From Verrucomicrobiota bacterium (GTDB taxonomy: Bacteria; Verrucomicrobiota; Verrucomicrobiia; Limisphaerales; SXTU01), in NCBI GenBank assembly GCA_016235545.1, contig JACRKB010000011.1:1-33837 (forward strand): a DNA stretch of 33,837 bases, given 5' to 3'. Under the pieces are notes generated by a model. The model was not told where the DNA came from. It saw only the letters and a list, made by a program, of their open reading frames with translations, and did no database searches. Made by a program: the position numbers and the translations under genes. This document shows positions 6,234-26,849 of the stretch, piece by piece. Position 1 is the stretch's first letter. Each line of letters begins with the position of its first letter.

Positions 6234-7925
6234 TTAACTCACCCGCAGCCACACGGTCTTCAAATGCGCCGGCTCCTCTCGCGTGATGGGGAAGTCCGGC
6301 GGTTGCGGGACGTAGTGCTGCAGCACGATGCGCCGGCCCGCGCGCTGAATCATCGCTTCGAGAGTGGCGAGGAATTCCTCCGGGGTGAGCGTTGCGCAGT
6401 TCGTGGAGGCGAAGAGGATTCCATCCGGCTTCAGCAGCGGCAGCGCCTGCGTGACAAGTTTCCCGTAGTCCTTCTCCGCGCGGAAGACGCCGCTCTCCTT
6501 CGACTGTGAGAAGGTCGGCGGGTCCAGCAGCACGGCATCGAACGCCCGCCCTTTCTTCGCCAGCCGCCGGAGCCAGTCGAACACATCGCCGTAGATGAAG
6601 TCGTGCGCCGCCGGGTCGATCCCGTTCAGCACGAAGTTGCGCCGGCCCCATTCCAGATACTTCTTCGAGAGGTCGAGGCTCGTGGCGCGCGCACCGGCCT
6701 TCGCGGCTGCGACGGAGAAGCCGCAGGTGTAGGCAAAGCAGTTGAGAACGGTGAAGGGTGAAGGGTGGAGGGTGAAGGGGAAGCCAGCCGCGATGTGGCC
6801 GGTGAGCAGGCGGCGGCGGTTGTCGCGCTGGTCGAGGAAAAGGCCGTAGCTGTAGCCCTCGGTGAAGCTGAGTTCAAACTGCAGTCCATTCTCCTGCACG
6901 GTGAAGCGCTCCGGGGCCGGCTCGCCGAGGACGAGCTGCGGCGAGGCTTGCACGGTTTTTGTTTCACGCACGAGGCGGTCGAGGTGTTTGTGATATGCAC
7001 CGCGCAGCTTGAGCTGCTCAAGCCGTGCGGCGAGCTGGGCTGACTGCGCGTCGGTGAGCGCGGCCTCGGATTGCGACAAAAGGAAATCGCCGAGCCGCTC
7101 GACTTGCCAGCCGGGCCAGCCGTCCGCTGAGCCGTGGATGAGGCGGAAGGCGGTGGTGGGTTCCGTGGCTGCGTCGTGCAACCCTTCCCTTGGAGCGCGG
7201 ACGCCCACGTCCGCAGCCGCTCCTTCGCAGAGCAAGGTTGCTTCGGACGTGGGCGTCCGTGCTCCAGCCAGCGCCCGCCGCAAACTGAGGCGTGCGTCGG
7301 CCGCGAAGTTGGCCGGCGCGCAATACGTGACTGCCTCGCCGGTGACGGGGTGGTTGATCGTGATTTTTTGCGCGTGGAGAAACACGCGCCCGGCAGGCGT
7401 GCCGCCGTAGAGCGTGTCGCCAAGGATGGGGAAGCCGTTCGCGGCGGCGTGGACGCGAATCTGATGCGTCCGGCCCGTGAGCGGCTCGGCGGTGATGGCC
7501 CAGGTTTTGAGTTCTGGGTTTTGAGTTTCGAGTTGGAAGCGCGTCTCCGCCGGATCTCCGCCGGCGTCAGTGGGCAGGCTCGTGTAGCGCTCGCCCTCGC
7601 GCGCGATGTTGCTGCGCACGACGAGTTCGGTCTGCGGTGGAGGGCGGTCGCTGACGAGGAGGTAGCGCTTCGAGACCTTGCGCTGCTCGAACTGCTGGGT
7701 GAGCGACCTGTTCGCCAGCGGCGTCTTGCCGAAGACGAGGACGCCGCTGGTTTCCTTGTCGAGCCGGTGGAGGATGGCGAGGTCTGCCCAGCGCGGCTCG
7801 CGGTGGCGGAGCCAGTCGTAGATGCCCTCGCCCGCGAAGGGCGCGGGAGCGTGCGTGTTCCAGCCGGCGGGCTTGTTCACGACGAGCAGGTGCTCATCTT
7901 CGTGAAGGATGCAGGGGGGAATCAC
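6234..7925 (-). CDS. Fused RluA-type pseudouridine synthase and RlmI-type RNA methyltransferase
   Basis: A 563-residue two-domain RNA modification protein. Residues 1 to about 215 are an RluA-family pseudouridine synthase, with catalytic Asp56 in HRLDKETSG (53-61), GRTHQIRVH (151-159) and LGDTLYGG. Residues from about 255 to 563 resemble RlmI/RlmK 23S rRNA cytosine-5 methyltransferases. EGYSYGLFLDQRDNR (356-370) is typical, NCFAYTCGFSVAAA is the SAM-binding loop and LLDPPTFSQSK (466-476) is the catalytic motif. The linker (221-245) is encoded by an inverted repeat. Two heptamer arrays are also translated: QLETQNPELKTW (131-142) and FPFTLHPSPFTV (382-393). All are in frame. The gene follows the GspB-like gene across a period-6 inverted repeat. 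The exact rRNA targets are not known. Confidence 0.9.
   Translation of the reverse strand: MIPPCILHEDEHLLVVNKPAGWNTHAPAPFAGEGIYDWLRHREPRWADLAILHRLDKETSGVLVFGKTPLANRSLTQQFEQRKVSKRYLLVSDRPPPQTELVVRSNIAREGERYTSLPTDAGGDPAETRFQLETQNPELKTWAITAEPLTGRTHQIRVHAAANGFPILGDTLYGGTPAGRVFLHAQKITINHPVTGEAVTYCAPANFAADARLSLRRALAGARTPTSEATLLCEGAAADVGVRAPREGLHDAATEPTTAFRLIHGSADGWPGWQVERLGDFLLSQSEAALTDAQSAQLAARLEQLKLRGAYHKHLDRLVRETKTVQASPQLVLGEPAPERFTVQENGLQFELSFTEGYSYGLFLDQRDNRRRLLTGHIAAGFPFTLHPSPFTVLNCFAYTCGFSVAAAKAGARATSLDLSKKYLEWGRRNFVLNGIDPAAHDFIYGDVFDWLRRLAKKGRAFDAVLLDPPTFSQSKESGVFRAEKDYGKLVTQALPLLKPDGILFASTNCATLTPEEFLATLEAMIQRAGRRIVLQHYVPQPPDFPITREEPAHLKTVWLRVS
6751..6778. repeat. Heptamer array inside the RluA-RlmI gene
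   Basis: Four words with an exact 7-base period: gtgaagg, gtgaagg, gtggagg, gtgaagg. Read on the minus strand it encodes part of FPFTLHPSPFTV just before the SAM-binding loop. The frame is kept. Confidence 0.88.
7191..7266. repeat. Protein-coding palindromic element, copy 1
   Basis: The arms 7191-7213 and 7244-7266 are a 23-bp inverted repeat with one mismatch (core cggacgcccacgtccg). Read on the minus strand the element encodes GARTPTS, a short loop, then AADVGVRAP (residues 221-245), precisely at the junction of the two enzyme domains. Each arm differs from the corresponding arm of the copy in FadJ (25588-25646) at only one base. Confidence 0.95.
7504..7537. repeat. Heptamer array inside the pseudouridine synthase domain
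   Basis: Words gttttga, gttctgg, gttttga and gtttcga, then a partial gttgg, with an exact 7-base period. On the minus strand it encodes QLETQNPELKT (131-141), a polar segment before AITAEPLTGRTHQIRVH. Confidence 0.88.
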
Positions 7926-7940
7926 GGGGAAAGGAGAGGA

Positions 7941-8038
7941 GCAGGATTAAGATTAGGATTAGGAGCAGGAACGGGAGAGAATGCGACGGGGTGGATTAAC
8001 AAATTTCCTCCTGCTCGTAATCCTAATCTTGATCCTGC
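7941..8038. repeat. Inverted repeat with period-6 word arrays, copy 2
   Basis: The left arm is five hexamers, gcagga-ttaaga-ttagga-ttagga-gcagga (7941-7970). The right arm is five hexamers, tcctgc-tcgtaa-tcctaa-tcttga-tcctgc (8009-8038), the complement with two or three mismatches. It lies between the GspB-like stop and the RluA-RlmI start and is the same family as 358-458. Confidence 0.92.
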
Positions 8039-8050
8039 TCCCCAGTCCCC

Positions 8051-8899
8051 TCATCGCAGCAGGAACAACTCCCGCCTCGCCCCGCTCTTCTCCACGGTGA
8101 CGCTGTCCACATCAATCTTGACCAACATCACGCCTTCGATGCGGTCGCCGAGGGAGACGGTCTTGCCGTTCACTGTGGCGAAAGTCTTCTTCTTGCCCCG
8201 GCTGATGCCCTGAAGTTTGAGGTCGGGAAACTCGACCGAGGCAACTTGCGTGGGGTGGCTCTCGCTCTTCTTCGGCAGGACCGGCGCCGGAGTGGGCGCG
8301 GGAGGATTCGAGTTGGTTGCGGTGGCTGCCACCGGTGGCGGAACGGCAGGCGGCGCAGGCGGGTTGAGGGCGACGCTGACCACTGGGTTGGTGGCCTTGG
8401 GCGCGGGTGGCTCCATCGCGACCGGCTGCGGAGGCGGAACGACGGGGACGACCGCAACTGGCGGGATGTTGGTCTTCGGCGGCTCGGGCGGAGGGGTGGG
8501 CGGGTTGACGGCGATTTTGACCGCCGGCGTGGGATTGGTGGCTGCGGGGGCGGGTGTGACCGGAGGCTTTCCGGCCGATGGCCGTGTGACCTTGGGTGGT
8601 TCTGCCTTGGCGACCAGGTTGGTCTTCGGCTGGCCGTCTTCATCAAGGTCCTCGGCTGCGTAGGGCTGCCACGATTGCCGCTTCTCCCACCACTGCACGA
8701 AGAAGAATCCGGACGCAGCGAGCAGCGCGACAACGACCAGTCCGATGCCCATCACCGGCACCCATGCGCGCCTCTCGCGGCTGGGAGCAGGCAGCATCGG
8801 CACCGGCAAATCCTGGACGCCCTTTGGGCCGCGCGGGCGGGCCTGGGCCTGGGCCTGGGCCTCGCTCGCTCGCTTGAGGGCGTCGTTGATGAGACTCAT
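8051..8899 (-). CDS. GspB-like membrane protein of a type II secretion or pilus system
   Basis: A 282-residue bitopic inner-membrane protein. It begins MSLINDALKRASEAQ, like the conserved cytoplasmic start of GspB-type proteins, then has one transmembrane helix at about 47-69. A long Pro/Ala/Val-rich periplasmic linker covers about 85-245. The C-terminal domain (KLQGISRG, AFTVNGK-like ATVNGKTVSLGD, VDSVTVEKSGARRELFL) matches the GspB/PilP-type fold. Residues 15-20 are an AQAQAQ run from a tandem hexanucleotide. The start at 8899 overlaps the ATPase stop as ATGA, so translation is probably coupled. The reading frame is open further upstream, but that region lies inside the ATPase gene. GspB-like proteins pair with GspA to help assemble the secretin in other bacteria. 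Confidence 0.82.
   Translation of the reverse strand: MSLINDALKRASEAQAQAQARPRGPKGVQDLPVPMLPAPSRERRAWVPVMGIGLVVVALLAASGFFFVQWWEKRQSWQPYAAEDLDEDGQPKTNLVAKAEPPKVTRPSAGKPPVTPAPAATNPTPAVKIAVNPPTPPPEPPKTNIPPVAVVPVVPPPQPVAMEPPAPKATNPVVSVALNPPAPPAVPPPVAATATNSNPPAPTPAPVLPKKSESHPTQVASVEFPDLKLQGISRGKKKTFATVNGKTVSLGDRIEGVMLVKIDVDSVTVEKSGARRELFLLR
8842..8862. repeat. Tandem hexanucleotide in the GspB-like gene
   Basis: About three and a half copies of gcctgg in a row, encoding alternating Ala-Gln on the minus strand. A plausible slippage site. Confidence 0.6.
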
Positions 8900-9711
8900 A
8901 CGCGGATGCGGCCCTCCAGCTCGCGGATGGCGGTGCCGACCATGTTGAAGTTCACGCGGTCGCGCTTCTGCACGAAGGCGGCGAGCAGGCATTTGTCTGC
9001 GAGCGCGTTGACCAGGCGCGGGATGCCGCCGCTGTAACGGTGGATGCGCCAGACTGCGGGCGCGCTGAAGTAGGGCGAGCCGTTCGCCCCGCACGCAGCG
9101 AGGCGGTGCTGGATGTATTGGCTGACCTCGCGCGGCGTGAGCGGGGCGAGATGGTAGCGGACGGTGATGCGCTGTCGAAGCTGGCGCAGCTCGTGTTTGT
9201 TCAGCCGGTCGCGCAGCTCGGGCTGCCCGAGCAGGATGATTTGAAGGAGCTTGCGGTCGTCGGTTTCGAGGTTGGAGAGCAGCCGGACCTGTTCGAGCAG
9301 CTCCGGTGTGAGGTCCTGCGCCTCGTCAATGATGAGCACGGCGTCGTGGCCCTTCATCACCTGGTCGAGGAGGAACTGGTTGAGCTCCGCAACTGTCTCC
9401 AGACGGTCCAAGCCTTTCACTTGAAGGCCGAACTCCATCGCGATGGCCTTCATCAACTGATCGGAGTTCAGGACCGGGTTGAGGATGAGCGCGGTGGCGT
9501 AGTTGGGGCCGAGGTGCTCGAGCAGCGCGCGGCAGATGGTGGTCTTGCCCGCGCCGACTTCGCCTGTGAGCTGGACGAAGCCCTTGCGCTCGCGGATGCC
9601 GTAGAGCAGATGGTTCAGCGCCTCGCGATGCTTCGCGCTGTAGAACAGGAGCCGCGGGTTCGGGTTGATGTTGAACGGCGGCTCGCGCAGTCCGTAGTAG
9701 TTGAGATACAC
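8896..9711 (-). CDS. ExeA/GspA-like AAA+ ATPase
   Basis: A 271-residue ATPase of the ExeA/GspA family, which uses ATP to help place the type II secretin through peptidoglycan, together with GspB. It begins with the family signature YLNYYGLREPPFNINPNP. Walker A is GEVGAGKTT (50-58) and Walker B is LIIDEAQDL (126-134); the arginine-rich sensor region follows (LRQRITVRYHLAPL). The protein stops before the C-terminal membrane and peptidoglycan-binding parts of classical ExeA, so it is the short cytosolic form. The start codon at 9711 is GTG. Its stop overlaps the GspB-like start (ATGA). Confidence 0.88.
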   Translation of the reverse strand: MYLNYYGLREPPFNINPNPRLLFYSAKHREALNHLLYGIRERKGFVQLTGEVGAGKTTICRALLEHLGPNYATALILNPVLNSDQLMKAIAMEFGLQVKGLDRLETVAELNQFLLDQVMKGHDAVLIIDEAQDLTPELLEQVRLLSNLETDDRKLLQIILLGQPELRDRLNKHELRQLRQRITVRYHLAPLTPREVSQYIQHRLAACGANGSPYFSAPAVWRIHRYSGGIPRLVNALADKCLLAAFVQKRDRVNFNMVGTAIRELEGRIRV

Positions 9712-9778
9712 GCGTTAGCCGAAGTGTTAGGGCAAAGGCGCTTGGCAGGAAAGCCCAGAAATGCACGGGGTGGTAATC

Positions 9779-9883
9779 AGGAGCCAGAAGTCAGGAGACA
9801 GGAGTCAGAATGCAGCGTTCCATGCGTCGGCAGCTCTGAAGATGCAAGTGACGCTGACTCATGGCTTCTGACTCCTGACTCCT
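9779..9883. repeat. Inverted pair of heptamer arrays
   Basis: The left array 9779-9813 is aggagcc, agaagtc, aggagac, aggagtc, agaatgc. The right array 9856-9883 is gactcat, ggcttct, gactcct, gactcct. The two are complementary in inverted orientation and both keep an exact 7-base period. It occupies the gap between the convergent-side end of the MBL hydrolase gene and the ATPase start. Confidence 0.9.
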
Positions 9884-9894
9884 CCCCCCAGCCT

Positions 9895-10827
9895 TCAGAA
9901 CACCTCCGGCACGCCCTCCTCCATGATGCGGAGATGCTGCGTGAGCTTGTCACGCCGCGCGATGTCGCGCAGCCAGCGCGGCGGCTCGTCCATCTCCTCG
10001 AAGGACAGCTTGAATGTGCCGTAGTGCATCGGGATGAACCATTTTGACTTAACCTCGCGGAAGGCCTTCGCCGCCTCGTCCGGCCCCATGTGGACCTTGC
10101 GGAAACTCTCCGGGTAGTATGCGCCGATGGGCAGCAGCGCGATCTCGGGCGCGAGGCGCGAGCCGATCTCCTTGAAGCCGTCGAAGTAGGCGCTGTCGCC
10201 CGCGTGATAGACGGTGCGGCCCTGGTGCTCCAGCACGAAGCCGCCGTAGCCGCGGTGCTTGTCCGTAATCGTGCGCGCGCCCCAGTGCTTGCAGGGCGTG
10301 AGCGTCACCTTCCAGTCGCCGTGGCTGAAGCTCTCCCACCATTGCAGCTCGACGATGCGGCTGAAGCCCAGCCCCTTCGCCAGCGGGGCCATGCCCCAGG
10401 GCATCACGCCGATCTTCGGGTGCGGCAGCTTGCGGATGGACGGCTTGTGGAAGTGGTCGAAGTGCGCGTGCGTGAGCAGCACGAGGTCAATCGGCGGCAG
10501 GTCGTCAATCTTCAGGCCCGATCGCTTGAGCCGCTTCAGCATGAAAAGCCAGTTGGCGAAGTTCGGATCAATCAACGCGTTGAGGTCGTTGAACTGCACG
10601 AGGAACGACGCGTGGCCGATCCACGTCAGCGCGAGCTGGCCGCGATCGAGCTTCGGAAATGTCGGCGGCTTGTGCTCACCGAGCCGTCGAGTGATGAGCG
10701 CCTTCCACACCATCTCGCGGAAGAACGTGCGCGGGTTGAAAGCCTTCGTTGGCGTGAGCTCCTTGAGCGACCTCGGCAGCTTGCGGCGACCGGAAGCGGC
10801 GTGACCGTGTCCTGAACCTGGCTCCAT
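9895..10827 (-). CDS. Metallo-beta-lactamase-fold hydrolase (UlaG/NAPE-PLD-like)
   Basis: A 310-residue metal-dependent hydrolase. ATG 10827 is chosen over an in-frame start at 10899, because the extra residues would overlap the divergent gene's upstream region and an AGAGAG stretch lies just upstream of 10827. IGHASFLVQF (70-79) is the first beta motif. THAHFDHFH (119-127) is the metal-binding motif. GDSAYFDGFKEIG and MHYGTFKL later in the protein supply further metal ligands. Members hydrolyse phosphodiesters or lactones, for example N-acylphosphatidylethanolamine or ascorbate lactone. The substrate here is not clear. A basic, serine-rich N terminus of about 20 residues has no obvious signal function. 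Confidence 0.85.
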   Translation of the reverse strand: MEPGSGHGHAASGRRKLPRSLKELTPTKAFNPRTFFREMVWKALITRRLGEHKPPTFPKLDRGQLALTWIGHASFLVQFNDLNALIDPNFANWLFMLKRLKRSGLKIDDLPPIDLVLLTHAHFDHFHKPSIRKLPHPKIGVMPWGMAPLAKGLGFSRIVELQWWESFSHGDWKVTLTPCKHWGARTITDKHRGYGGFVLEHQGRTVYHAGDSAYFDGFKEIGSRLAPEIALLPIGAYYPESFRKVHMGPDEAAKAFREVKSKWFIPMHYGTFKLSFEEMDEPPRWLRDIARRDKLTQHLRIMEEGVPEVF

Positions 10828-10928
10828 AGCGTGCTCTCTTTGACGGGGTAATGAAGCCACAAGCCCCGCGATCTGAAAGCCCAATTTTGCGCTTTGCACA
10901 ACCCGCCCTGCCGCCGTTTCATCGCCGC

Positions 10929-11480
10929 ATGACTTTGGAAGAACGGCTCGACACCTACCTCCGCAACAAGCCCGTGCTGGGCAACGGCGTTTATCTCGCC
11001 AAGACCGCCGTCGTCCTGGGCGACGTGACGCTCGGCGACAACTCCAGCGTGTGGTTTGGCGCGGTGCTGCGCGGCGACATCAACCGCATCGTCGTCGGCG
11101 CGAACTCCAACATCCAGGACAACGCCGTCGTGCATCTCGCCGACGAGTTCCCCTGCCTCATCGGCGATTGGGTCACGGTGGGCCACTCCGCCATCATCCA
11201 CGCCTGCACCATCGGCGACGAATGCCTCATCGGCATGGGCGCGACCATCCTCGACGGCGCGGAGATCGGCGCGCAGAGCATCGTCGGTGCGAACGCGCTG
11301 GTGACGGGCGGGACGAAGGTGCCGCCGGGTTCACTTGTGCTCGGTTCCCCGGCAAAGGTAGTCCGTGCGCTCACGCCGGAGGAACGCGCGGGCTTGAAAT
11401 ACTGGGCGGAGAAATACGTGGGCAACGGCGCCTTCTGCCTGAAGCACAATCTCAACATGGGCGCGCCGCTGGCTACGTAG
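10929..11480 (+). CDS. Gamma-class carbonic anhydrase family protein
   Basis: A 183-residue left-handed beta-helix protein of the gamma-carbonic anhydrase/YrdA/PaaY family. These are trimers that bind zinc between subunits. Hexapeptide repeats run through GDVTLGDNSSVWFGAVLRGD, GANSNIQDNAVVH and TIGDECLIGMGATILDG. The three metal histidines are the one in NAVVH and the two in GHSAIIHAC. An in-frame ATG lies at 10851, but the family normally starts close to MTLEERLDTYL, so 10929 is used. It is divergent from the MBL hydrolase with about 100 bases between starts. Carbonic anhydrase activity is not assured, as many members act on other substrates or are inactive. Confidence 0.9.
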   Translation: MTLEERLDTYLRNKPVLGNGVYLAKTAVVLGDVTLGDNSSVWFGAVLRGDINRIVVGANSNIQDNAVVHLADEFPCLIGDWVTVGHSAIIHACTIGDECLIGMGATILDGAEIGAQSIVGANALVTGGTKVPPGSLVLGSPAKVVRALTPEERAGLKYWAEKYVGNGAFCLKHNLNMGAPLAT

Positions 11481-11554
11481 TCGGAGGCTTCACCCTGCGC
11501 TTCGGGAATTGCGACTCGCCATCCGCGTCCTGAAGGCTTCGACCACGGTTGCCA

Positions 11555-12391
11555 CTACGGCTTCCGCGTGTGGGACAGGAACCACTCGTAGAGCTTCGGG
11601 TTGTTGTAGGTCGCAGTCCACGAGTCGTGACCCGCCTCGGGATAAACCGTCAGTTGCACATCCTTCACGCCAGCCTTCTTGAGCGCCTCCACCATGCGCT
11701 CCGATTCGGCGAGCGGCACGCCTGTGTCCTTCCCGCCGTGAAACGCCCAGACCGGGAGCGACTTGAGCGCATCCGCCTTCGTGCGCGAGGCCACGAGGAT
11801 GTCAATCCGCTCGCCCCCGCCGCAGATGGGCGCGACCGCCGCGAAGCGCTCCGGAGATTTGGACAGCAGCGCCCAGGAGCCATAGCCGCCCATGCTCAGG
11901 CCCGTGAGACAAACCCGGCCCGTGTCCACCTTGTGGCTGGCGATGACGCTGTCCAGCAGCGCAAGCAACGCCTCCGCCTCCCAGCGCCCGCCGACGGGGC
12001 ACTGCGGCGAGACGACGATGAAATTCTCAGTAAGCAGCTTCGTGGCGGCCTCGCGGCCCTTGCGGCCCTCGTCGGACTCGTTCTTCGGCACGGGCGGATT
12101 CCGCTTCACCAGCTTGGGCGGGCCGTGGACGGCGACGAGCGGGAGGTTCGTGCCGCGTTCGCCCGAGCCGTGGAGGAAGAGGATGAGCGGCCACCTCTTC
12201 GCCGCCTTCGCGTCGTAGCCAGGCGGCAGGTAGAGCAGGTAGCCGAGCTCCACTTTCTGGGTGAGCTGTGTCTGGAACTTCTGATGCGTCTGCATCAGTT
12301 CTGGGTCGGGAGCTTGGGCTGCTGCAGCTGCTACGAAAAACAAGCTGGCGGCGCACAACCAGCCAAGCGAGGGAAGGGCGTGTCGAGTCAT
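11555..12391 (-). CDS. Secreted alpha/beta hydrolase (predicted esterase/peptidase)
   Basis: A 278-residue exported alpha/beta hydrolase. A signal peptide covers about 1-26, ending AAAAAQA. FLHGSGERG (72-80) forms the oxyanion region, GLSMGG (164-169) carries nucleophile Ser166, KDTG supplies Asp222 and AGHDSW carries His255. The combination resembles the COG4099 predicted peptidase/PHB-depolymerase-like group common in Verrucomicrobiota. The reading frame is open far upstream of 12391, but that upstream part is antisense to the divergent gene. The substrate is not clear; ester-linked plant polymer side chains are a reasonable guess only. It ends 74 bases from the convergent carbonic anhydrase gene. 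Confidence 0.87.
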   Translation of the reverse strand: MTRHALPSLGWLCAASLFFVAAAAAQAPDPELMQTHQKFQTQLTQKVELGYLLYLPPGYDAKAAKRWPLILFLHGSGERGTNLPLVAVHGPPKLVKRNPPVPKNESDEGRKGREAATKLLTENFIVVSPQCPVGGRWEAEALLALLDSVIASHKVDTGRVCLTGLSMGGYGSWALLSKSPERFAAVAPICGGGERIDILVASRTKADALKSLPVWAFHGGKDTGVPLAESERMVEALKKAGVKDVQLTVYPEAGHDSWTATYNNPKLYEWFLSHTRKP

Positions 12392-12502
12392 AGAATTGGG
12401 AGGAGTATTGCCGGACGCGGTGCCGCTGTGCAAGCCGCCCCCAGCGCACCCGCAAGATGCCTCGCTTGACAAGCGGCGGACGCGCCGATTGAGTCGCGGG
12501 CC

Positions 12503-12970
12503 ATGAAGCACGCCGACAATTCTCTCGCCCGCCTCCCAGCGCTTTGGCTCGCAGGCGGCTGGCTCAGCCTCGCTCTCCTCAGCCCGCTTCTTGCCGCAGA
12601 CAAGCTGGAGAAGCTGGAGAAGCCCGCCGCAGCCGCGACCCAGTCCGTCACCGGCAAGTGGACATACACGCTTGAAGTTTCCTTCGACACCTCCCTCGAT
12701 TTCACCGCCGAGTTGAAGCAGGACGGCGAGAGCGTCACTGGCTCCGTCACGGTGCAGGAGGTGAGGACCGCGATTGAGAAGGGCAGGTTCAAGGAGGGCC
12801 AGCTCACCTTCGAAATCCCGCGCGAGTATGGCGGCACGAAGTTCATGTCCCGCTACCAAGGCAGGCTCGCCGGCGACACGCTCAAGGGCAAAATCCTTTC
12901 CGGCACCGCGCCGCTGGAGCGCAGCTACGAGTGGAACGCCAAGCGGGCCAAACCCGCTGCGAAGCCGTGA
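12503..12970 (+). CDS. Secreted small beta-sheet protein, unknown function
   Basis: A 155-residue exported protein. The signal peptide ends near SPLLAAD (about 31). The mature part reads VTGKWTYTLEV, FTAELKQDGESVTGSV, GQLTFEIPREYGG, RYQGRLAGDTLKGKI, SYEWNAKR. This is the repeated beta-strand pattern of a small lipocalin-like secreted domain I know from Planctomycetes and Verrucomicrobiota, of unknown function, in which the closing W-AKR is typical. A basic, alanine- and proline-rich tail follows. It is divergent from the esterase with about 110 bases between starts. A TTGACA lies at 12466-12471, but no convincing -10 box follows it. Confidence 0.78.
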   Translation: MKHADNSLARLPALWLAGGWLSLALLSPLLAADKLEKLEKPAAAATQSVTGKWTYTLEVSFDTSLDFTAELKQDGESVTGSVTVQEVRTAIEKGRFKEGQLTFEIPREYGGTKFMSRYQGRLAGDTLKGKILSGTAPLERSYEWNAKRAKPAAKP

Positions 12971-12995
12971 GCGGAGCCGTTCGACCACTCAACTG

Positions 12996-13188
12996 AACCT
13001 AAATCCGGCAGTTGAAACTTAACGCAAAGACGCAAAGACGCAGGGCCGCAAAGAAAACCGACTTGGTTGGTTTCGCTCCCGACTTCACCGCGCCGGTGAA
13101 TGCACTTCAGCTTGGCAACCCAACCCAATTCTTTCCTCACTGCGCCTTTGCGTCTCTGCGCCTTTCCGTTAACTGCGGTTTCCAGGTT
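12996..13188. repeat. Inverted pair of period-8 arrays
   Basis: The left array is acgcaaag, acgcaaag, acgcaggg, ccgcaaag (13022-13053). The right array is tgcgcctt, tgcgtctc, tgcgcctt, tccgttaa (13141-13172). Less regular outer arms are 12996-13012 and 13171-13188. It is non-coding. Together with the next element it explains most of the 338-base gap before the M81 gene. Confidence 0.9.
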
Positions 13189-13202
13189 GATCTGACTTGG
13201 AC

Positions 13203-13308
13203 AATGGCGAATGGCGAATTCCGAGCGGCGACTCCCGGCGCTTGCGCCACCAAGCCAAGTGCAGACTGGCTGAGATTTGACATTCGCAATTCCTGATTTG
13301 CCATTCTC
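13203..13308. repeat. Inverted pair of heptamer arrays ending at a start codon
   Basis: The left array is aatggcg, aatggcg, aattccg (13203-13223). The right array is cattcgc, aattcct, gatttgc, cattctc (13281-13308). The last heptamer touches the ATG of the M81 gene at 13309, so the gene has no Shine-Dalgarno and the array is its leader. Confidence 0.9.
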
Positions 13309-19667: not shown

Positions 19668-19735
19668 GGGGCGTTCCTGATGCGGGTTTTTGCAGATGAG
19701 GCTACCGACTCGGGCCGTTCCAAGTCTTCTCAAGT

Positions 19736-19763
19736 TTGACAGGCACGAAACCTGTTCTACGTT
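19736..19763 (+). promoter_or_regulatory. Possible sigma-70 type promoter
   Basis: TTGACA at 19736-19741, a 16-base spacer and TACGTT at 19758-19763. The -35 box is perfect but the -10 is weak. It lies about 95 bases before the first gene of the lipid cluster, which fits its position as promoter of that cluster. Confidence 0.35.
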
Positions 19764-19855
19764 GAGCCAAGACAGAGAAGCAAAATGGGCAGCACACACA
19801 GTTTAGCCTTAAGTGGCAGCGATGACCGGCCAGCGGGCCGTCTGGAGTAGCGTGG

Positions 19856-21592
19856 ATGGTTCCGCAGCAGCCGTCGCTCAGGAAGACGGAAATGCCTGCG
19901 TCGCATCCAACCGAAAAGTCAGTGTGGGACCTCCGGAGGGCCGAACTCCTCTCCTCCCTCGCCCGTCCGCCGCAGGCCGCCTTCAACCGTTCCGGTCGCC
20001 TCACCGCCCTCGCCTCCGCATCTCGCCGCATCCCGGACCGCCTGGTCGCCGAGTCGCTTGCGCAAATGCTTCAATCCGTCACCGGCGAGCGCGTGCTGCT
20101 GCTGCTGCTGGTGCCGTCGGACGCTGGCGCAACGGCGAAAGTCTGGAGCCCGATCCATTCGCTTCCGAACAACGGCTTCGCCTTCGCGGACCAGCTCCAG
20201 CATCTCGGGAGCTTCGACCGCCTCACGCTCCGGGTGACAAACCATCTGGCGGAGCGGCCTTTCCTCTCCGCCTTCTTCGGCCACTGCGCGCGGCATTTCG
20301 GCCATGTGCTCATCCATGTGGACGCGGACGCGCCCCGTCAGGCTCTCGCCGAGGCTGCGACTCGTTCCTCCGCGACCTACGTGCTCGCGCAGCAAACGGT
20401 GGACAGCCTCTTCGAGTTCAACCAGCTCGACCGCGAGCTGCGCGTCGCGCGCGACGGAGTGGCGACGGATTTGAAGCTCGTGCTCTGCCTCGAACACGAC
20501 GAGGTGCCGCAGCCGGCGGAGGATTTCATCAAGCAAATCGGCCAGCCCGCGCACCTGAACCTGCACGAGTCGCCCGCCACGATGGACTCGCTCCACTCGC
20601 ACTGCGGCGGCGTGTGGCCGGTGGCGTTCAAGTTCGACCTCCGCCGGCTCGCGCGCGAAATCGGCCGCTGCCGCGTGGGCCTCGCGCTGTCAAGCGGCGG
20701 TGCGAAGGGCCTCGCGCACGTCGGCGTGCTGCAAGTGCTGGAGGAGAACGGCATCGAGGTGGACGTCGTCGCCGGCACGAGCATGGGTGCTTACATCGGC
20801 GCGCTGTGGGCATTCGGGCACGACGGCCAGTTCCTCGGTCGCAAGGCCCGCGAGCTCGAGGGCAAGTGGGGCCTGCTCAAGCTGATTGATCCCGCCTTCC
20901 CGCCACGCCGTGGTTTCATCCACGGCCACGCGATTCGAGAGCGGCTCGAACGCAGCATCGGCGACGCGCGTTTCGAACAGCTCGCGCGGCCGTTGCATGT
21001 GGTTGCGACGCGTTTCGACACGCTGGAGCGTGTGGTGTTCAGCGCGGGCCAAGTCTCGAGCGCGGTTCACGCGAGCTGCGCGATTCCAAGCGTCTTCGTT
21101 CCCGTGCGGCTCGACGGCGAGACCTACATTGATGGCGGCGTCTCGGACCCGCTGCCGGTGGACGTGCTGCGCGAGGCGGGCGTCGAGCGTGTCATCGCGG
21201 TGAACATCATTCCCACGCCGGCCTTCCTGCGCTGCGCGCGCGAGCACGAGCGCGAGCAGGTGGACGTGAAGCGCAGCCACTTCAATTTCCTCCGGCTGCT
21301 CAACCAGCAGATCAACTATTTCGCCTACGGCAACATCCTCGACGTCACCCAGCGCGCCGTCATCGGCGGGCAGATTCGGGCCGCCGAGGATGCTTGCCGT
21401 CAGGCAGACGTTGTTCTCCGTCCGCTCGCATGCGACTCCCGCTGGCACGATTTCTCCAACCCCGGAAAATACATTTCTCTCGGCCGCCGCGTGGCCGAGG
21501 AGAACCTCACGGAAATTACAAAACTCGTGAACCGAAAGGATCCAATCCATGAGCACGAAAGTCCTCACCACGAACTGGCAGCGGCTGCCTGA
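19856..21592 (+). CDS. Patatin-like phospholipase
   Basis: A 578-residue lipid acyl hydrolase. The C-terminal half is a patatin domain: ALSSGGAKGLAHVGVLQ (277-293) is the oxyanion loop, GTSMG (307-311) carries nucleophile Ser309 and YIDGGVSDP carries catalytic Asp426. The N-terminal 270 residues (VLLLLLVPSDA near 80-89, HVLIHVDADAP near 150-160) resemble the part preceding patatin in bacterial NTE-like proteins, but there is no cyclic-nucleotide domain. ATG 19892 with AGGAAG upstream is an equally good start; use of 19856 gives 12 more residues. The 3' end overlaps the next gene by 44 bp. In this setting it probably frees fatty acids for the downstream enzymes. Confidence 0.9.
   Translation: MVPQQPSLRKTEMPASHPTEKSVWDLRRAELLSSLARPPQAAFNRSGRLTALASASRRIPDRLVAESLAQMLQSVTGERVLLLLLVPSDAGATAKVWSPIHSLPNNGFAFADQLQHLGSFDRLTLRVTNHLAERPFLSAFFGHCARHFGHVLIHVDADAPRQALAEAATRSSATYVLAQQTVDSLFEFNQLDRELRVARDGVATDLKLVLCLEHDEVPQPAEDFIKQIGQPAHLNLHESPATMDSLHSHCGGVWPVAFKFDLRRLAREIGRCRVGLALSSGGAKGLAHVGVLQVLEENGIEVDVVAGTSMGAYIGALWAFGHDGQFLGRKARELEGKWGLLKLIDPAFPPRRGFIHGHAIRERLERSIGDARFEQLARPLHVVATRFDTLERVVFSAGQVSSAVHASCAIPSVFVPVRLDGETYIDGGVSDPLPVDVLREAGVERVIAVNIIPTPAFLRCAREHEREQVDVKRSHFNFLRLLNQQINYFAYGNILDVTQRAVIGGQIRAAEDACRQADVVLRPLACDSRWHDFSNPGKYISLGRRVAEENLTEITKLVNRKDPIHEHESPHHELAAAA
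21535..21540 (+). promoter_or_regulatory. Ribosome binding site of the acyl-CoA ligase gene
   Basis: AAAGGA, eight bases before ATG 21549 and inside the patatin coding region. It supports the overlapping start. Confidence 0.7.
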
Positions 21593-23084
21593 AGCCACCG
21601 TCCGCGCCTTGCAGGCGGAGAAGCTCCACCGCTGGCTTCGCGACTCGGTGCTGCCCTTCTCCGCGCACTACCGCGAGCTGTTCCGCCAGTTGAAGCTCAC
21701 AGCTGAGGACTTTCGCTCGCTCGCCGACTTGCGCCGCCTGCCCTTCACCAGCAAGACCGACCTGCTCAACACGCCGGAGAATTCGCAGAAGGTCCGCGAC
21801 TTCCTCCTCGTCCCCGACCGCAACACCCTCTCGCGACGCCCGTCGTCCATACTCCGGGCACTGCTCCACGGCCGCGCGCATGTCGCTGCGGGATTTGAAA
21901 ATGAGTTCCGCCCCATCTTCCTCACGAGCACCACGGGCCGGAGCGCCGACCCGGTGCCGTTCCTCTACACCAACCACGACATCGCGAACCTCCAGCTCGC
22001 GGGCGAGCGCGTTTTCGGCGTGTGCGGCGCGCGACGCGAGGACAAGCTCCTGAACATGTTCCCCTACGCGCCGCACCTCGCGTTCTGGCTCACGCACTAC
22101 GGCAGCACGAGCTTCGGTGCGTTCACCGCCAGCACCGGCGGCGGCAAGGTCATGGGCACCGAGGGACAGATTCGTTTCCTCCGCAAGATTCGCCCCGACG
22201 TGCTCATCGGCATGCCGACATTCGTCTATCACGTCCTGCATCAAGCAGCGGAGGAAGGCGTGCGCTGCGAAAACCTCCGGCGCATCGTGCTCGGTGGCGA
22301 AAAGGTGCCCGACGGTATGCGCCTGAAACTGCGCAATCTCGCCCTCGAACTCGGTGCGCGCGAACTCGACGTCGTCACCACCTACGGCTTCACTGAGGCG
22401 AAGATGGCCTTCGCCGAATGCCCTGTGCCCGTGGACGAACCCTCCTCCGGCTACCATCTCTATCCCGATCTCGGCGTCGTCGAGGTGGTGGACCCGAAGA
22501 CCGGCGAACCGGTGCCGAATGGCCAGCCCGGCGAGGTTGTCTTCACCCCGCTCGACTCGCGCGGGACAGTCGTCCTCCGCTACCGCACCGGCGATTACAT
22601 TGACGGCGGCCTGACTTACGAAGCCTGCCCGCACTGCGGTCGCCAGCTCCCGCGCCTCGTCGGCAAAATCTCCCGCAGCTCCGCGTTCAAGGAAGTGCAG
22701 CTCGACAAAATCAAGGGCACGCTCGTGGACTTCAACGAGCTCGAGCACGTCCTCGACGACGCCCCGAACGTCGGCGCGTGGCAGATTGAACTCCGCAAGC
22801 TCCACGACGACCCGCTCGAAGTGGACGAACTCGTCCTGCACGTCCAGAAAATCAACGGAGCCGACGACGACCATCTCATCCACGACCTCCGCGCCCGACT
22901 CACCACGCGCTGCGAAATCTCCCCGAACCGCATCGAGTTCCACAACGCCGAGAAGATGCGCGACCTCCAGGGCGTCGGCGTGCAGCTCAAGGAACAGAAG
23001 CTCGTGGACCATCGCCCGAAGGCCCCTGTAGCGGCGGTCTGCGAACGCCGTCCCGAACCCGCCACCGCGAAGGAGGCTGCATGA
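21549..23084 (+). CDS. PaaK-like acyl-CoA ligase (AMP-forming)
   Basis: A 511-residue adenylate-forming enzyme resembling phenylacetate-CoA ligases. It would activate a carboxylic acid with ATP and join it to CoA. TSTTGRSADP (126-135) is the phosphate-binding loop, YGFTE (279-283) the second ATP motif and RYRTGDY (344-350) the ribose-binding Asp. CPHCGRQ (360-366) looks like a structural cysteine pair, seen in some PaaK-type enzymes. The last 25 residues are low complexity and partly encoded by a GGCGGTCTGCGAACGCC-type hairpin. It overlaps the patatin gene, so patatin products are the likely substrates, most probably fatty acids rather than phenylacetate; that is inference from context. Confidence 0.85.
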   Translation: MSTKVLTTNWQRLPEATVRALQAEKLHRWLRDSVLPFSAHYRELFRQLKLTAEDFRSLADLRRLPFTSKTDLLNTPENSQKVRDFLLVPDRNTLSRRPSSILRALLHGRAHVAAGFENEFRPIFLTSTTGRSADPVPFLYTNHDIANLQLAGERVFGVCGARREDKLLNMFPYAPHLAFWLTHYGSTSFGAFTASTGGGKVMGTEGQIRFLRKIRPDVLIGMPTFVYHVLHQAAEEGVRCENLRRIVLGGEKVPDGMRLKLRNLALELGARELDVVTTYGFTEAKMAFAECPVPVDEPSSGYHLYPDLGVVEVVDPKTGEPVPNGQPGEVVFTPLDSRGTVVLRYRTGDYIDGGLTYEACPHCGRQLPRLVGKISRSSAFKEVQLDKIKGTLVDFNELEHVLDDAPNVGAWQIELRKLHDDPLEVDELVLHVQKINGADDDHLIHDLRARLTTRCEISPNRIEFHNAEKMRDLQGVGVQLKEQKLVDHRPKAPVAAVCERRPEPATAKEAA

Positions 23085-23100
23085 GTGCCCGCGCCGCCAT

Positions 23101-23251
23101 CTCATTAGCACCCGGCTTCAGCCGGGTGTATCGCCCGCTCGCGAGGGCGAACCGTTTCAACGGTTTGCCCGTCCGCTCGGCAGAAACCGTTGAAACGGTT
23201 CCCGCCTCATTTTCCGTCGCTGACACCTGGCTGAAGCCAGGTGCTAATGAG
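23101..23251. repeat. Compound hairpin element, copy 2
   Basis: The outer arms 23101-23128 and 23224-23251 match at 26 of 28. Each arm is itself a hairpin, and the two mismatches are a base-pair swap within the right hairpin (ccgg to ctgg with matching ccag), so its own stem is intact. Inner palindromes around aaccgtttcaacggtt match copy 1 (1716-1870) almost exactly. It lies between the ligase and thiolase genes. Confidence 0.93.
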
Positions 23252-23278
23252 AGCGTGTCACGTCGCACCACGCCTCCC

Positions 23279-23305
23279 CATCCGCATCATCCGCGCTATC
23301 TGCGG
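23279..23305. repeat. Nonamer array in the leader of the thiolase gene
   Basis: Three nonamers, catccgcat, catccgcgc, tatctgcgg, then gcaac, ending 12 bases before the thiolase ATG at 23323. It is the same word family as 6192-6222 and 16072-16105. No Shine-Dalgarno is visible between it and the start. Confidence 0.85.
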
Positions 23306-23322
23306 GCAACCCTCTCCCTGCC

Positions 23323-24618
23323 ATGAGCGCTCCTCGCCTCGTCATCGTGGACGGCATCCGCACGCCGTTCTGCAAAATGGGCACCGACCTCGCCGCCCTC
23401 GGCGCGGACGAACTCGGCCGCATCGCCACGCAAGCCCTCCTTACCCGCACCGGCCTCGACCCCGCGCTGATTGACGAGGTCATCTTCGGCTGCGTCGGCC
23501 AGCCTGCCGACGCCGCGAACGTCGCACGCGTCATCGCCCTGCGCGCCGGCATTCCCGAACACGTCCCCGCCATCACCGTGCATCGCAACTGCGCCTCCGG
23601 CCTGGAGTCGCTCACGCAGGCTTACGAGAAGATGACTGCCGGACGGGGCTCCATCTTCCTCGTCGGCGGCGCGGAGAGCATGAGCAACTACCCGTTGCTC
23701 TACACGAAGGCGGCGGCGGAGAAGTTCGCCAAGCTCGGACGCGCAAAATCCCTCCTCGAAAAAGCCTCTGCCCTCGCCGCGTTCCGCCTCGCCGACTTCA
23801 ACCCGCGCATCACCCTCCAGCTCGGCCTCACCGACCCCGTCTGCGGCATGAACATGGGCGACACCGCCGAGTTGCTCGCCCGCGAGTCCGGCCTCAGCCG
23901 CGAGGAGCAGGACGCCTTCGCCCTCGAATCCCACAAGCGCGCCGCCGCCGCGAAGACCAAGCTGGCCGAGGAAATTTGCCCCGTCTTCAACTCCGACCCC
24001 AAAGGCAGGAACTCAAAACCCATCGTCGCCGACAACGGCGTCCGCGAATCGCAAACGATGGAAGCCCTCGCGAAGTTGAAGCCCGTCTTCGACCGCCGCC
24101 ACGGCACCGTCACCGCCGGCAACGCCTCGCAAATCACCGATGGCGCGGTCGCCTTGCTCGTGATGACCGAAGAGCGTGCCGCCGAGCTGGGCTTCACGCC
24201 CATCGGCGCGTTGCTGGGCTACGCCTACGCGGGCTGCGACCCATCGCGCATGGGCCTCGGTCCCGTCTTCGCCATCGCGAAGGCCGAGGAGAAGACCGGT
24301 CTCGCTGTGAACTACGCCGACCTTGTCGAAATCAACGAAGCCTTCGCCGCCCAGACACTCGCCGTTCTCAAGTGCTGCGAGTCGGAGAAGTTCGCCAAGA
24401 AGATGCTGGGCCGTGCGTATCCCGTCGGCGAAATCCGCCGCGACCGGCTCAACGTCAACGGCGGTGCCATCGCCCTCGGCCACCCCGTCGGCGCGACCGG
24501 CGCGCGCCTCGTGCTGACAAGCCTGAAGGAACTCAAACGACAAAACCTGAAGCGCGCGCTCGTGACCGTCTGTGTCGGCGGCGGCCAGGGCGCAGCCATC
24601 TGGCTGGAGGCGTTATGA
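23323..24618 (+). CDS. fadI: Acetyl-CoA acyltransferase (thiolase, FadI/HADHB type)
   Basis: A 431-residue thiolase that splits 3-ketoacyl-CoA with CoA, releasing acetyl-CoA, the last step of each beta-oxidation round. Nucleophile Cys90 lies in HRNCASGLES. The C-terminal GHPVGATGAR (386-395, His387) and CVGGGQGAA (Cys417) complete the active site. MEALAKLKPVF-GTVTAGNAS is typical of the trifunctional-protein beta-subunit group. The gene overlaps fadJ by ATGA, which makes equal expression of the two likely. It is the third gene of the lipid cluster. Confidence 0.94.
   Translation: MSAPRLVIVDGIRTPFCKMGTDLAALGADELGRIATQALLTRTGLDPALIDEVIFGCVGQPADAANVARVIALRAGIPEHVPAITVHRNCASGLESLTQAYEKMTAGRGSIFLVGGAESMSNYPLLYTKAAAEKFAKLGRAKSLLEKASALAAFRLADFNPRITLQLGLTDPVCGMNMGDTAELLARESGLSREEQDAFALESHKRAAAAKTKLAEEICPVFNSDPKGRNSKPIVADNGVRESQTMEALAKLKPVFDRRHGTVTAGNASQITDGAVALLVMTEERAAELGFTPIGALLGYAYAGCDPSRMGLGPVFAIAKAEEKTGLAVNYADLVEINEAFAAQTLAVLKCCESEKFAKKMLGRAYPVGEIRRDRLNVNGGAIALGHPVGATGARLVLTSLKELKRQNLKRALVTVCVGGGQGAAIWLEAL
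24606..24610 (+). promoter_or_regulatory. Ribosome binding site of fadJ
   Basis: GGAGG, four bases before ATG 24615 and within the thiolase 3' end. It fixes the fadJ start despite a longer open frame upstream. Confidence 0.75.
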
Positions 24619-26849
24619 GCACGGCAACCCTACTCGCACCTGAGCAACTCAAACTCGACGTGATGAACGCACCTCAATCTCCACCCGCGCCGCGCGAGTT
24701 CAAAAATCTCCACCGCGAAGTCACCGCCGACGCCATCGCCGTCCTCACCTTCGACCGGCCCGACTCCGCCGCGAACATCTTCGACCGCGCCACGCTGGAG
24801 GAACTCAACGCCCACCTCGACGCCATCGAGCGCGACTCCACCTTGCGCGGCGTCGTGCTCGTCAGCGCCAAGCCCGGCATCTTCATTGCCGGCGCGGACC
24901 TGCATTCGCTTTCCACCGCGCCGATGAACGCGCTGCGCGAGATGGTCGAGTTTGGCCAGCGCGTCTTCAGCCGGCTCGCCGCGCTCCCGCTGCCGACTGC
25001 CGCCGCGATTCACGGCGCGTGCCTGGGCGGCGGGTTCGAAGTCTGCCTCGCGTGCGACTTCCGTTTCGCCACGCCCGACAAGGCCACAAAGCTCGGCCTT
25101 CCCGAGGTGCTGCTCGGCATCCTGCCCGCGTGGGGCGGCAGCACGCGGCTCCCGCGCCTCATCGGCCTGCCGAAGGCGCTCGACCTTATCCTCGCTGGTA
25201 AAACTGTTGTCTCTAAGCAGGCCCTCAAACTCGGCATGGTGGACGACCTCGTGCCGAACGAGAGCTTGCTCACCGTCGCGCTGGCGAAAGTCGCAAAGGC
25301 TGGCCGCAAGCCTCATCGCGTCACACCCCTTGAAATTAAGGCCACGAACAACATCATCGCCGGCAACCTCATCTCCATGCTCACCCAACCGAAGCTCTTC
25401 AAGAAGACACGCGGCCACTACCCCGCCGTGCTCAAGGCGCTCGAAGTCGTGACGCTTGGCGTGGGCCGCTCGGAGGAACGCGCGTTGAAGCTGGAGGCCG
25501 ATGCGATTTGCCAGCTCGCGCAGACCGAGGCGGCGAAGAATCTGATTCGCGTCTTCTTTCTCCAGGAGCGCGCGAAGAAACTCACCTTGGAGCCCGGACG
25601 CCCACGTCCGGGTCACGCGGCTGCGGACGTGGGCGTCCGCGCTCCAGTGAAGCGCGCCACCGTCATCGGCGCGGGCGTGATGGGCGCGGGCATCGCGCAA
25701 TGGCTCGCGGCGCGCGGCGTGTCCGTGATGTTGCGCGACATCAACACCGATGCCGTTGGTCGCGGCATGGCGACGGTAGGCAAGCTCTTCGCCGATGGCG
25801 TGAAACGCCGCACTTTCACGCCGGTCGAGGCGCGCGCGGCGATGGACAAGATTTCTCCGGTCGTCGAGTTGCCTTCGCTGCGTCGCGCGGATGTCGTCAT
25901 CGAGGCCGCCGTGGAGAAGATGGACTTGAAGAAGGACATCTTCCGCAAGCTGGAGCAGCTCGCCGGGCCGGACACGATTCTCGCCACGAACACCTCCGCG
26001 CTCTCCGTCACCGAGCTGGCCGAGAGCCTCATCGCTCGCGAGCGCGTCGTGGGCATCCACTTCTTCAACCCGGTGCATCGGATGCAGCTCGTGGAGGTCA
26101 TCCACACGCCGCACACGGATGCCGAGGTCACGCGGCGCGCGCTGAAGTTCGTGCAAGCAATGGGCAAGCTCCCCGTGCTCGTGAAGGACAGCCCGGGCTT
26201 CGTCGTGAACCGCGTGCTGATGCCGTATCTCGTCGAGGCGGCGCGGCTGTTCGAGATGGGCGCGGAAGTCATGGACCTCGATGAGGCGATGCTCGACTTC
26301 GGGATGCCGATGGGCCCGCTGCGGCTCGTGGACGAGGTCGGCACGGACGTTTCCCTGCATGTGGCCGAGACGCTGGCGAGCCATTACCACCGGCGCATGG
26401 CGGTGCCGGAAGTTCTCTCCAAGCTCGTGAAGGGTGGCCATCTCGGGCGCAAGTCGGGCGAGGGGTTTTACATTCACCAAGGCAAGGAAGCCTCAGTGGG
26501 CGAAGCCGCCGAGCGCTTCGTGAAGGACGACTCCGCCGCGAACCTCGACCGCGCCGACCTCACGCTCCGCATGGTGCTGCTCATGGTCAACGAAGCCGCG
26601 CGTTGCGTGGAGGAGGGCATCGTGAGCGGCCCGGAGGATGTGGACTTCGCGATGATTATGGGCGCGGGCTTCGCGCCGTTCCGTGGCGGCCCGCTGCGTC
26701 ACGCGGACACGGTCGGCGTGGCGAATGTCGTGCGCGCGATGAACGAGCTAGTGGACGAAGGCGAGGAACGCTTCGCCCCGTGCGCCTTGCTGAAGGATTT
26801 GGCTGCGAAGGATGGTAAACTCTACCCCGAGAAAGGAGTGTTGATATGA
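24615..26849 (+). CDS. fadJ: Fatty acid oxidation multifunctional enzyme (enoyl-CoA hydratase/3-hydroxyacyl-CoA dehydrogenase)
   Basis: A 744-residue alpha subunit that hydrates enoyl-CoA and then oxidises 3-hydroxyacyl-CoA with NAD. The crotonase domain (about 30-220) has FIAGADLHSL (90-99) and GACLGGGFEV (134-143), with Glu142 and Glu164 as catalytic candidates. The dehydrogenase domain starts at about 347 with GAGVMGAG, has His482 in GIHFFNPVHRMQ and ends normally. Between the two domains, residues 325-344 are encoded by a 59-bp palindromic element and include AADVGVRAP. ATGA overlaps join it to the thiolase upstream and the acyl-CoA dehydrogenase downstream. It pairs naturally with the FadI-type thiolase. 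Confidence 0.94.
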   Translation: MSTATLLAPEQLKLDVMNAPQSPPAPREFKNLHREVTADAIAVLTFDRPDSAANIFDRATLEELNAHLDAIERDSTLRGVVLVSAKPGIFIAGADLHSLSTAPMNALREMVEFGQRVFSRLAALPLPTAAAIHGACLGGGFEVCLACDFRFATPDKATKLGLPEVLLGILPAWGGSTRLPRLIGLPKALDLILAGKTVVSKQALKLGMVDDLVPNESLLTVALAKVAKAGRKPHRVTPLEIKATNNIIAGNLISMLTQPKLFKKTRGHYPAVLKALEVVTLGVGRSEERALKLEADAICQLAQTEAAKNLIRVFFLQERAKKLTLEPGRPRPGHAAADVGVRAPVKRATVIGAGVMGAGIAQWLAARGVSVMLRDINTDAVGRGMATVGKLFADGVKRRTFTPVEARAAMDKISPVVELPSLRRADVVIEAAVEKMDLKKDIFRKLEQLAGPDTILATNTSALSVTELAESLIARERVVGIHFFNPVHRMQLVEVIHTPHTDAEVTRRALKFVQAMGKLPVLVKDSPGFVVNRVLMPYLVEAARLFEMGAEVMDLDEAMLDFGMPMGPLRLVDEVGTDVSLHVAETLASHYHRRMAVPEVLSKLVKGGHLGRKSGEGFYIHQGKEASVGEAAERFVKDDSAANLDRADLTLRMVLLMVNEAARCVEEGIVSGPEDVDFAMIMGAGFAPFRGGPLRHADTVGVANVVRAMNELVDEGEERFAPCALLKDLAAKDGKLYPEKGVLI
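25588..25646. repeat. Protein-coding palindromic element, copy 2
   Basis: The arms 25588-25610 and 25624-25646 are inverted with one mismatch in 23 bp. It is translated in frame as PGRPRPGH then AADVGVRAP at the hydratase/dehydrogenase junction of FadJ. A 30-base stretch ending at 25646 is identical to the complement of the right-hand part of copy 1 (7191-7266). Confidence 0.95.
26832..26838 (+). promoter_or_regulatory. Ribosome binding site of the acyl-CoA dehydrogenase gene
   Basis: AAAGGAG, seven bases before ATG 26846. It is the strongest Shine-Dalgarno in the window. Confidence 0.85.

Follow-up and report, generated by a model that had tools for sequence, protein, structure and literature searches.

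GGAG-tagged, REPIN-like hairpin pairs lie in frame within unrelated genes of a Verrucomicrobia genus

A family of short palindromic elements, each built of two inverted REP hairpins with a GGAG tag, is dispersed through the genome of a Verrucomicrobiota bacterium and throughout its genus. Part of the copies lies within genes of unrelated function, where the reading frame continues through the element at sites that are empty in genus mates. Within genes, the 3′ arm is strongly biased towards one reading frame and, at two sites (PheT and FadJ), the element has taken the place of a native loop. The element is real and mobile-looking, with a predicted translation; this GGAG-tagged family is new, its kind is known. 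We consider it likely that the family represents a REPIN-like non-autonomous mobile element that is moved by a RAYT (that is, a REP-associated HUH/Y1 transposase) and is tolerated inside genes as a near-neutral linker peptide.

Two copies lie in the 33,837-nt stretch of DNA analysed here (the window; Table 1). A first-pass annotation had described them as palindromes in frame within two enzymes, both encoding AADVGVRAP; positions, frame and peptide were all found as claimed, each copy standing inside a continuous open reading frame (ORF), as was the stretch of 30 identical base pairs that the copies have in common. The further claim that corresponding arms are one base apart holds over the 23-nt arms used there, but over 24-nt arms the 5′ arms differ at two positions, which are both closing positions of the hairpin stem. 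The window contains four arm matches at three or fewer mismatches, compared with none in 100 shuffles.

Table 1 Element copies in the window and their host genes
Feature	Position	Strand	Description
Element copy 1	7191..7266	.	76 bp TGGAG...CTCCA; 74 bp from GGAG to CTCC; inverted pair of 24-nt arms
Peptide of copy 1			Minus-strand reading, GARTPTSEATLLCEGAAADVGVRAP
REP arm of copy 1	7191..7214	+	Exact consensus: GGAG, 1 nt, 7-bp stem GCGGACG/CGTCCGC, loop CCCA
Second REP arm of copy 1, inverted	7243..7266	-	2 differences from consensus; closing pair A/A unpaired
Host gene 1, RluA-type pseudouridine synthase / RlmI-type methyltransferase fusion	6234..7925	-	Insert between both domains
Element copy 2	25588..25646	.	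59 bp; 57 bp from GGAG to CTCC; short class
Peptide of copy 2			Plus-strand reading, EPGRPRPGHAAADVGVRAP
REP arm of copy 2, variant type	25588..25611	+	Closing pair C-G; 2 differences from consensus
Second REP arm of copy 2	25623..25646	-	Exact consensus
Host gene 2, FadJ-type enoyl-CoA hydratase / 3-hydroxyacyl-CoA dehydrogenase	24615..26849	+	Element replaces native linker

The window also holds two copies of a second palindromic family (1713–1873 and 23100–23252), with outer arms TCTCATTAGCACCCGGCTTCAGCCGGGTG and with inverted repeats around AACCGTTTCAACGGTT within or near each copy.

Dispersal and anatomy of the hairpin pairs

The window's own genome (G000; 5.0 Mb in 311 contigs) contains 177 matches to the 24-nt arm at three or fewer mismatches, compared with a single match to the backward pattern; that is, the unit is a short imperfect palindrome at high copy number, as in REPINs. 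When relatives were searched as well (58 genomes in total: G000, ten genus mates designated G001–G010, and 47 others of the order; 23-nt arm, two or fewer mismatches), the family was present in all ten genus mates, with 2 to 179 arms each, and in seven of the 47 other genomes, with one to three arms. This search of the whole genome and relatives, which the first-pass annotation had proposed, agrees with its view that the palindrome is inserted DNA and not a common protein motif, given that copies are dispersed genome-wide, both within and between genes. An exact arm scan of named genome contigs returned at least 87 stretches, and the believable titles among the matches listed were those of Verrucomicrobia (Limisphaerales, Pedosphaera). 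Titles naming Klebsiella pneumoniae, Akkermansia muciniphila and Proteobacteria stand on sister bins (loci L012, L017, L026 and sister loci, L numbers denoting the loci examined); for element-bearing bins of this genus such titles appear to be wrong, presumably through mislabelling.

For anatomy, 78 stretches of the own genome plus the window were sampled (chosen from 100 listed of the 177 arms plus DNA matches, a choice that under-represents weaker copies). At five or fewer mismatches, these contain 147 arms, of which 29 stand alone and the others form 59 plus-minus groups. All 59 pairs have the same head-out orientation, with GGAG outermost, and no other pairing occurs within 400 bp. Lone arms make up 29 of the 88 own-genome elements, 15 of them at contig ends; one (L112:1336, five mismatches) was treated as chance. 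Each arm folds alone into a hairpin, comprising GGAG, one base, the stem GCGGACG/CGTCCGC and the loop CCCA. The tag GGAGC is present in 137 of 149 own-genome arms, and each of the seven stem pairs is intact in 134–146 of them. Among 293 arms, the closing pair is G-C but also A-T (11) or C-G (7), the partner arm being mostly G-C, and the closing position is unpaired in 25. Support from covariation is modest, consisting of these 18 double changes, which partly reflect inherited subfamily structure.

Common element sizes in the own-genome sample are near 57 and 74 bp, and neither a common spacer nor a hidden autonomous element was recognized in own-genome pairs by listing and k-mer count. At three orthologous sites measured, 19–23 of 23 arm positions are identical, compared with 14 of 28, 7 of 10 and 8 of 9 spacer positions; thus, arms outlast spacers clearly at one of the three. 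One arm of L143 is itself degraded. Two inverted REPs around a short variable spacer are the layout of REPINs, and we use the name REPIN-like because the tag, GGAG, departs from the foot tetranucleotide GT[AG]G. Given that RAYTs with GGAG hairpins exist in the genus, GGAG may be a variant tag.

Empty sites and transposase genes

Also in support of inserted DNA, alignment of orthologues showed that the peptide is absent from 14 other FadJ and 29 other RluA–RlmI proteins (the latter including one C-terminal part only). In FadJ, the family is absent from all eight genus mates with a full copy, and the corresponding segment measures 99 nt in six mates, 90 in one, 144 in one and 120 in the window; therefore, the FadJ of the window carries the element in place of the native linker of about 13 residues that is usual there. 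PheT lacks the element in all nine mates examined (G008, a partial match, was left out), in eight of which the loop reads TNVNGQPK or differs from that by one residue, whereas the own genome has 25 residues, a net gain of 51 nt. For target-site duplication, few sites are resolved, and PheT and FadJ show replacement of native codons. The element is also absent from a short-chain dehydrogenase/reductase (SDR) gene in five of the six mates seen. Some copies are common to several species: the glycogen-debranching enzyme carries the element in G000, G006, G005 and G010, lacks it in G001 and G002 and has no intact arms in G003 (three further mates were not placed).

The 3′ end is missing from the SDR copy of G006 (L265), and a change of frame occurs over the copy, indicating either a broken gene or an assembly error. 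Different inverted repeats occupy the same linkers elsewhere, namely in FadJ of G010 (24-nt arms, 75% complementary) and in RluA–RlmI of G006 (30 nt, 90%) and G010 (33 nt, 79%); the long RluA–RlmI linker of G007 showed no clear inverted repeat.

An alignment search for RAYTs gave matches in eight of the 11 genomes of the genus, and among eight proteins tested against NCBIfam seven were assigned to REP_Tyr_transpos and one to IS200. The NCBIfam cut-off of 80 was exceeded by L107 and L102, and the three own-genome proteins scored below it (69.6, 76.9 and 52.8). Of 16 RAYT loci scanned, five (L296 at G000:C4, L291, L292, L289 and L297) have hairpins of the form GGAG, one nucleotide and a 7-bp stem, which in L296, L291 and L292 read TGGAG-T-GCGGTGA...TCACCGC; L297 has a single GGAG-type hairpin. 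Among the other loci, the GGAG of L285 directly adjoins the stem, hairpins of GTAG or GTGG types occur at four, and six lack tagged hairpins. Shuffled sequences contained on average 0.1 tagged hairpins of any kind per locus (four loci, ten shuffles each).

In REPINs the cognate RAYT is flanked by the same REP. Here, no RAYT flanked by the element family was found among 16 Y1/RAYT loci (six or fewer mismatches) or in another scan of 17 loci, the sole near match in the 16, with 6 of 23 mismatches, being in L010 at a distance of about 1.3 kb from an IS200-type gene. These are draft genomes and 15 of the 29 lone arms lie at contig ends; therefore, a cognate RAYT locus could be unassembled. The putative link to RAYTs is one of architecture and not direct. 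We also considered an IS200-type TnpA as the source and rejected it, as no family arm at six or fewer of 24 mismatches lies near the three own-genome genes.

RAYT domains were themselves observed within other genes. The own-genome alaS (L290/L305, G000:C51:13152-16442, minus strand) was called as an ORF of 1,097 amino acids with no stops and contains an in-frame RAYT-type HUH transposase domain at about residues 414–634 (NCBIfam 69.6, below the cut-off), flanked by inverted GTGG-tagged hairpins. In G007, alaS (L105/L289/L306, G007:C172:1671-5045, minus strand) has another RAYT domain at the same linker, flanked by GGAG-tagged hairpins; the two RAYT domains are 55% identical and the whole ORFs 73%. 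The linker is short in G002 and G008, and in G004 (L307) and G001 (L308) the region is about 100 residues longer with other sequence and no palindrome evident by eye. In L107/L285 (G006:C27:165041-165676), a proline racemase/hydroxyproline epimerase ORF is followed in frame by a fused RAYT, around which lie GGAG-tagged hairpins.

A different kind of transposon should be weighed at this point. The near-perfect terminal inverted repeats of the window copies, 57–76 bp in all, together with in-frame insertion as in Rickettsia (PMC10969869), could indicate a classical MITE with terminal inverted repeats, mobilized by a DDE transposase and closer to the Rickettsia elements than to REPINs. We consider this unlikely: each arm is a hairpin unit of its own and can occur singly (the lone arms described above, about half of them at contig ends), no common spacer was seen, the layout matches that of RAYT-flanking hairpins, and at PheT and FadJ, the empty sites that are resolved best, replacement is seen and not duplication. 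The same two sites also count against the REPIN/RAYT explanation, as they are not clean insertions, and we know of no RAYT step that predicts replacement of native codons.

Copies within genes and their reading frame

Genes were called with a home-made Markov coding model, by which the coding density of the own genome is 0.855. Its 59 pairs divide into 39 intergenic, 15 mid-gene, four over a gene edge and one in the N-terminal part of an ORF; genes are therefore strongly depleted of pairs relative to coding density. A mainly extragenic distribution is what characterizes REPINs, although the excess is weaker here than in Pseudomonas. Of the 61 distinct pairs in the 87 stretches listed from other species, 14 are mid-gene (10 of 55 in 80 stretches and 4 of 6 in L092–L098). 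The mid-gene class requires an open frame, and out-of-frame copies could be missed elsewhere. Together, the 15 and the 14 make up the 29 mid-gene pairs considered below, from which lone arms and terminal cases are excluded. Outside genes (80 loci plus the own-genome sample), 52 pairs lie between same-strand, 24 between convergent and five between divergent genes.

Pairs within genes are shorter. None of the 29 mid-gene pairs exceeds 90 bp, compared with 20 of 78 intergenic pairs (P = 0.001), and pairs of 60 bp or less are enriched in genes (11 of 29 versus 11 of 78, P = 0.013), with the caveat that a stop is likelier within a longer spacer. As described for intragenic REP dimers, insertions are in frame in genes of unrelated function: across all species sampled, the hosts include PheT, apolipoprotein N-acyltransferase (Lnt), MnmE, SDR, aldehyde dehydrogenase, FdhD, an M1 peptidase, the glycogen-debranching enzyme, AMP-binding enzymes, several PSD1/PSCyt2 proteins and a polyketide-synthase-like protein. 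The first-pass annotation placed the insert between two catalytic domains, and this is correct for both window copies by Pfam (RluA–RlmI fusion: PseudoU_synth_2 1-147, insert 206-230, Methyltrans_SAM 246-542; FadJ: ECH_1 24-222, insert 310-329, 3HCDH_N 333-510), but does not extend to the family, in which the inserts of PheT, SDR, aldehyde dehydrogenase, MnmE and Lnt lie inside a single Pfam domain or fold and some others between domains. In L098, two copies (5237-5317 and 5549-5629) each follow a carrier (PP-binding) domain and are tandem-duplicated with it, a related copy in L061 (7906-7986) is cut by the end of the locus, and a copy in L012 also follows a carrier domain; we take these domains to be carrier domains from their Pfam names. 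Other REP families, too, are represented by mid-gene arms in the loci examined. Separately, GTAG-tagged family hairpins were seen several times inside called genes (L125 520-1345; L130 1636-1775).

In 25 of the 29 mid-gene pairs, the 3′ arm reads ADVGVRAP or a near variant (P = 6e-9 against one third). After merging of related copies (the orthologous pairs L018/L049 and L076/L115 and the L098 tandem duplication), 23 of 26 are in this frame (P = 9e-9), and inclusion of the L061 copy gives 25 of 30 (P = 2e-8). The four exceptions are L125 and L096, which read RTWASAL, and the two L098 tandem copies, which read GRGRP; outside the 29, the L061 copy also reads GRGRP and an N-terminal copy in L019 reads RTWASAL. 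In the stretches L092–L098, three of the four mid-gene pairs go against the frame rule. The 5′ arm, by comparison, uses all three frames (GARTPTS-type 17, ERGRPRP-type 8 and SADAHVR-type 4 of the 29), and wherever the 3′-arm rule holds its frame is set by element length modulo 3.

The own genome's coding model scores the ADV frame best for the 3′ arm (+0.78, compared with -1.76 and -4.92 for the other frames), whereas for the 5′ arm GARTPTS, the commonest frame, scores worst and is thus the least gene-like, so that choice by peptide leaves the 5′ arm unexplained. The RTWASAL hosts are Lnt (L125) and a PAP2/PMT_2 protein (L096), both of which we take to belong to families of integral membrane proteins; RTWASAL in membrane-protein families fits choice by peptide and is suggestive, with two cases. 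The freedom of the arms from stops was considered as a coding adaptation and rejected: although none of the six frames contains a stop, the same is true of 3,794 of 5,000 shuffles.

Intragenic copies might instead be functional, whether by providing a portable linker or by slowing translation between domains through strong mRNA hairpins. Both window copies do lie between domains, four genomes retain the element in the linker of the debranching enzyme, copies follow carrier domains in L012 and, co-duplicated, in L098, and the predicted RNA folds of the two window elements are very stable (-59.3 and -51.7 kcal/mol; z -8.6 and -8.0). We nevertheless regard a function as quite improbable, because most mates lack the element in PheT, FadJ and SDR, and because it sits inside single domains as well, has unrelated hosts and is depleted in genes relative to coding density.

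Strong hairpins in coding sequence also recall the bypass elements known from the mitochondria of some yeasts; if ribosomes bypassed the element, or if it were removed in another way, the coding frame would be irrelevant. The phase common to 25 of 29 pairs would then be needless. Split genes near close copies were considered as a sign of bypass or breakage and rejected, since among 26 closely flanked same-strand pairs outside genes, the eight checked by Pfam contained no gene split by an element. One frameshifted copy, that of the G006 SDR, does exist, and we judge bypass very unlikely. That the common peptide of the two enzymes is a conserved protein motif is refuted by aligned orthologues without the peptide, unrelated hosts, 5′ halves in three frames and a palindromic DNA sequence that also lies between genes.

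Related systems and implications

The first-pass annotation knew of no description of such elements in this group, but that they are undescribed there is not supported: in-frame intragenic REP dimers of GTAG and CGTC families, coding for 20–30 amino acids, were reported in 2013, with the most GTAG-type dimers in Opitutus terrae, a member of the Verrucomicrobia, and flexible linkers or loops were suggested as their sites (PMC3733652). Like these dimers, members of the present family are short, carry two tagged hairpins in inverted orientation and lie in frame within unrelated genes; they differ in tag (GGAG in place of GTAG), genus and sequence family, and the accessible text of that report makes no mention of a preferred reading phase or of native-loop replacement. 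With the REPIN/RAYT system (PMC3116915) it shares inverted REP doublets around a spacer and the presence in the genus of RAYTs with flanking REPs of their own. REPINs, though, are largely extragenic (14 of 1,067 core 16-mers overlap genes in Pseudomonas fluorescens; PMC3116915), whereas 15 of 59 sampled pairs are mid-gene here and no RAYT flanked by the family was found.

In-frame REPs inside tnpA-REP genes (subclass 2.4) are similar in that an in-frame REP lies in a peripheral part of a protein, although the protein there is the transposase, compared with housekeeping enzymes here, where the converse, a RAYT domain inside alaS, is also seen (PMC6006769, in which GT[AG]G is the canonical tag). 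The parallel drawn beforehand with the coding palindromes of Rickettsia is an apt analogy, as those too are palindromes in frame within unrelated genes (PMC10969869, PMC3733652, PMC2635572), but the structure of the present element fits REPINs better; the Rickettsia elements are, by a review, about 150 bp long, and they belong to another host phylum. In the literature searched, which lay mostly outside subscription papers, frame bias, loop replacement and a RAYT within alanyl-tRNA synthetase were not found. The REP dimer class itself is therefore known, and the frame bias and loop replacement are the informative additions to it.

We suggest that the element, a pair of inverted REP hairpins separated by a short spacer without conservation and scattered through a single Verrucomicrobia genus, is moved in trans by a RAYT, which would act on single-stranded hairpins. 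Copies that land in genes would survive in a tolerant linker or loop with the frame kept, and the survivors would mostly be those whose phase makes the 3′ arm encode ADVGVRAP, a bland peptide. The element would then amount to an extra or substitute linker peptide that is close to neutral. A more far-reaching scenario can be envisioned, which as a whole we hold to be doubtful: the REP/RAYT system of the genus might be adapted to coding DNA, with several families riding, translated, in essential enzymes, and RAYT genes with their flanking REPs riding too, as in alaS of G000 and G007. Landing might replace the native loop, and the element might be chosen by its peptide, bland in soluble and hydrophobic in membrane proteins, with later amplification together with a host domain, as between the carrier domains of the polyketide-synthase-like protein.

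In summary, the family provides a countable case of mobile DNA recruited into proteins: its inserts number in the dozens and close relatives have the sites empty, which makes it possible to measure what frames, positions and lengths are tolerated by a protein. The 3′-arm bias and its exceptions form a sharp, testable regularity, and the RAYT domain of alaS, if expressed, would join a transposase to an essential enzyme in an unusual fusion.
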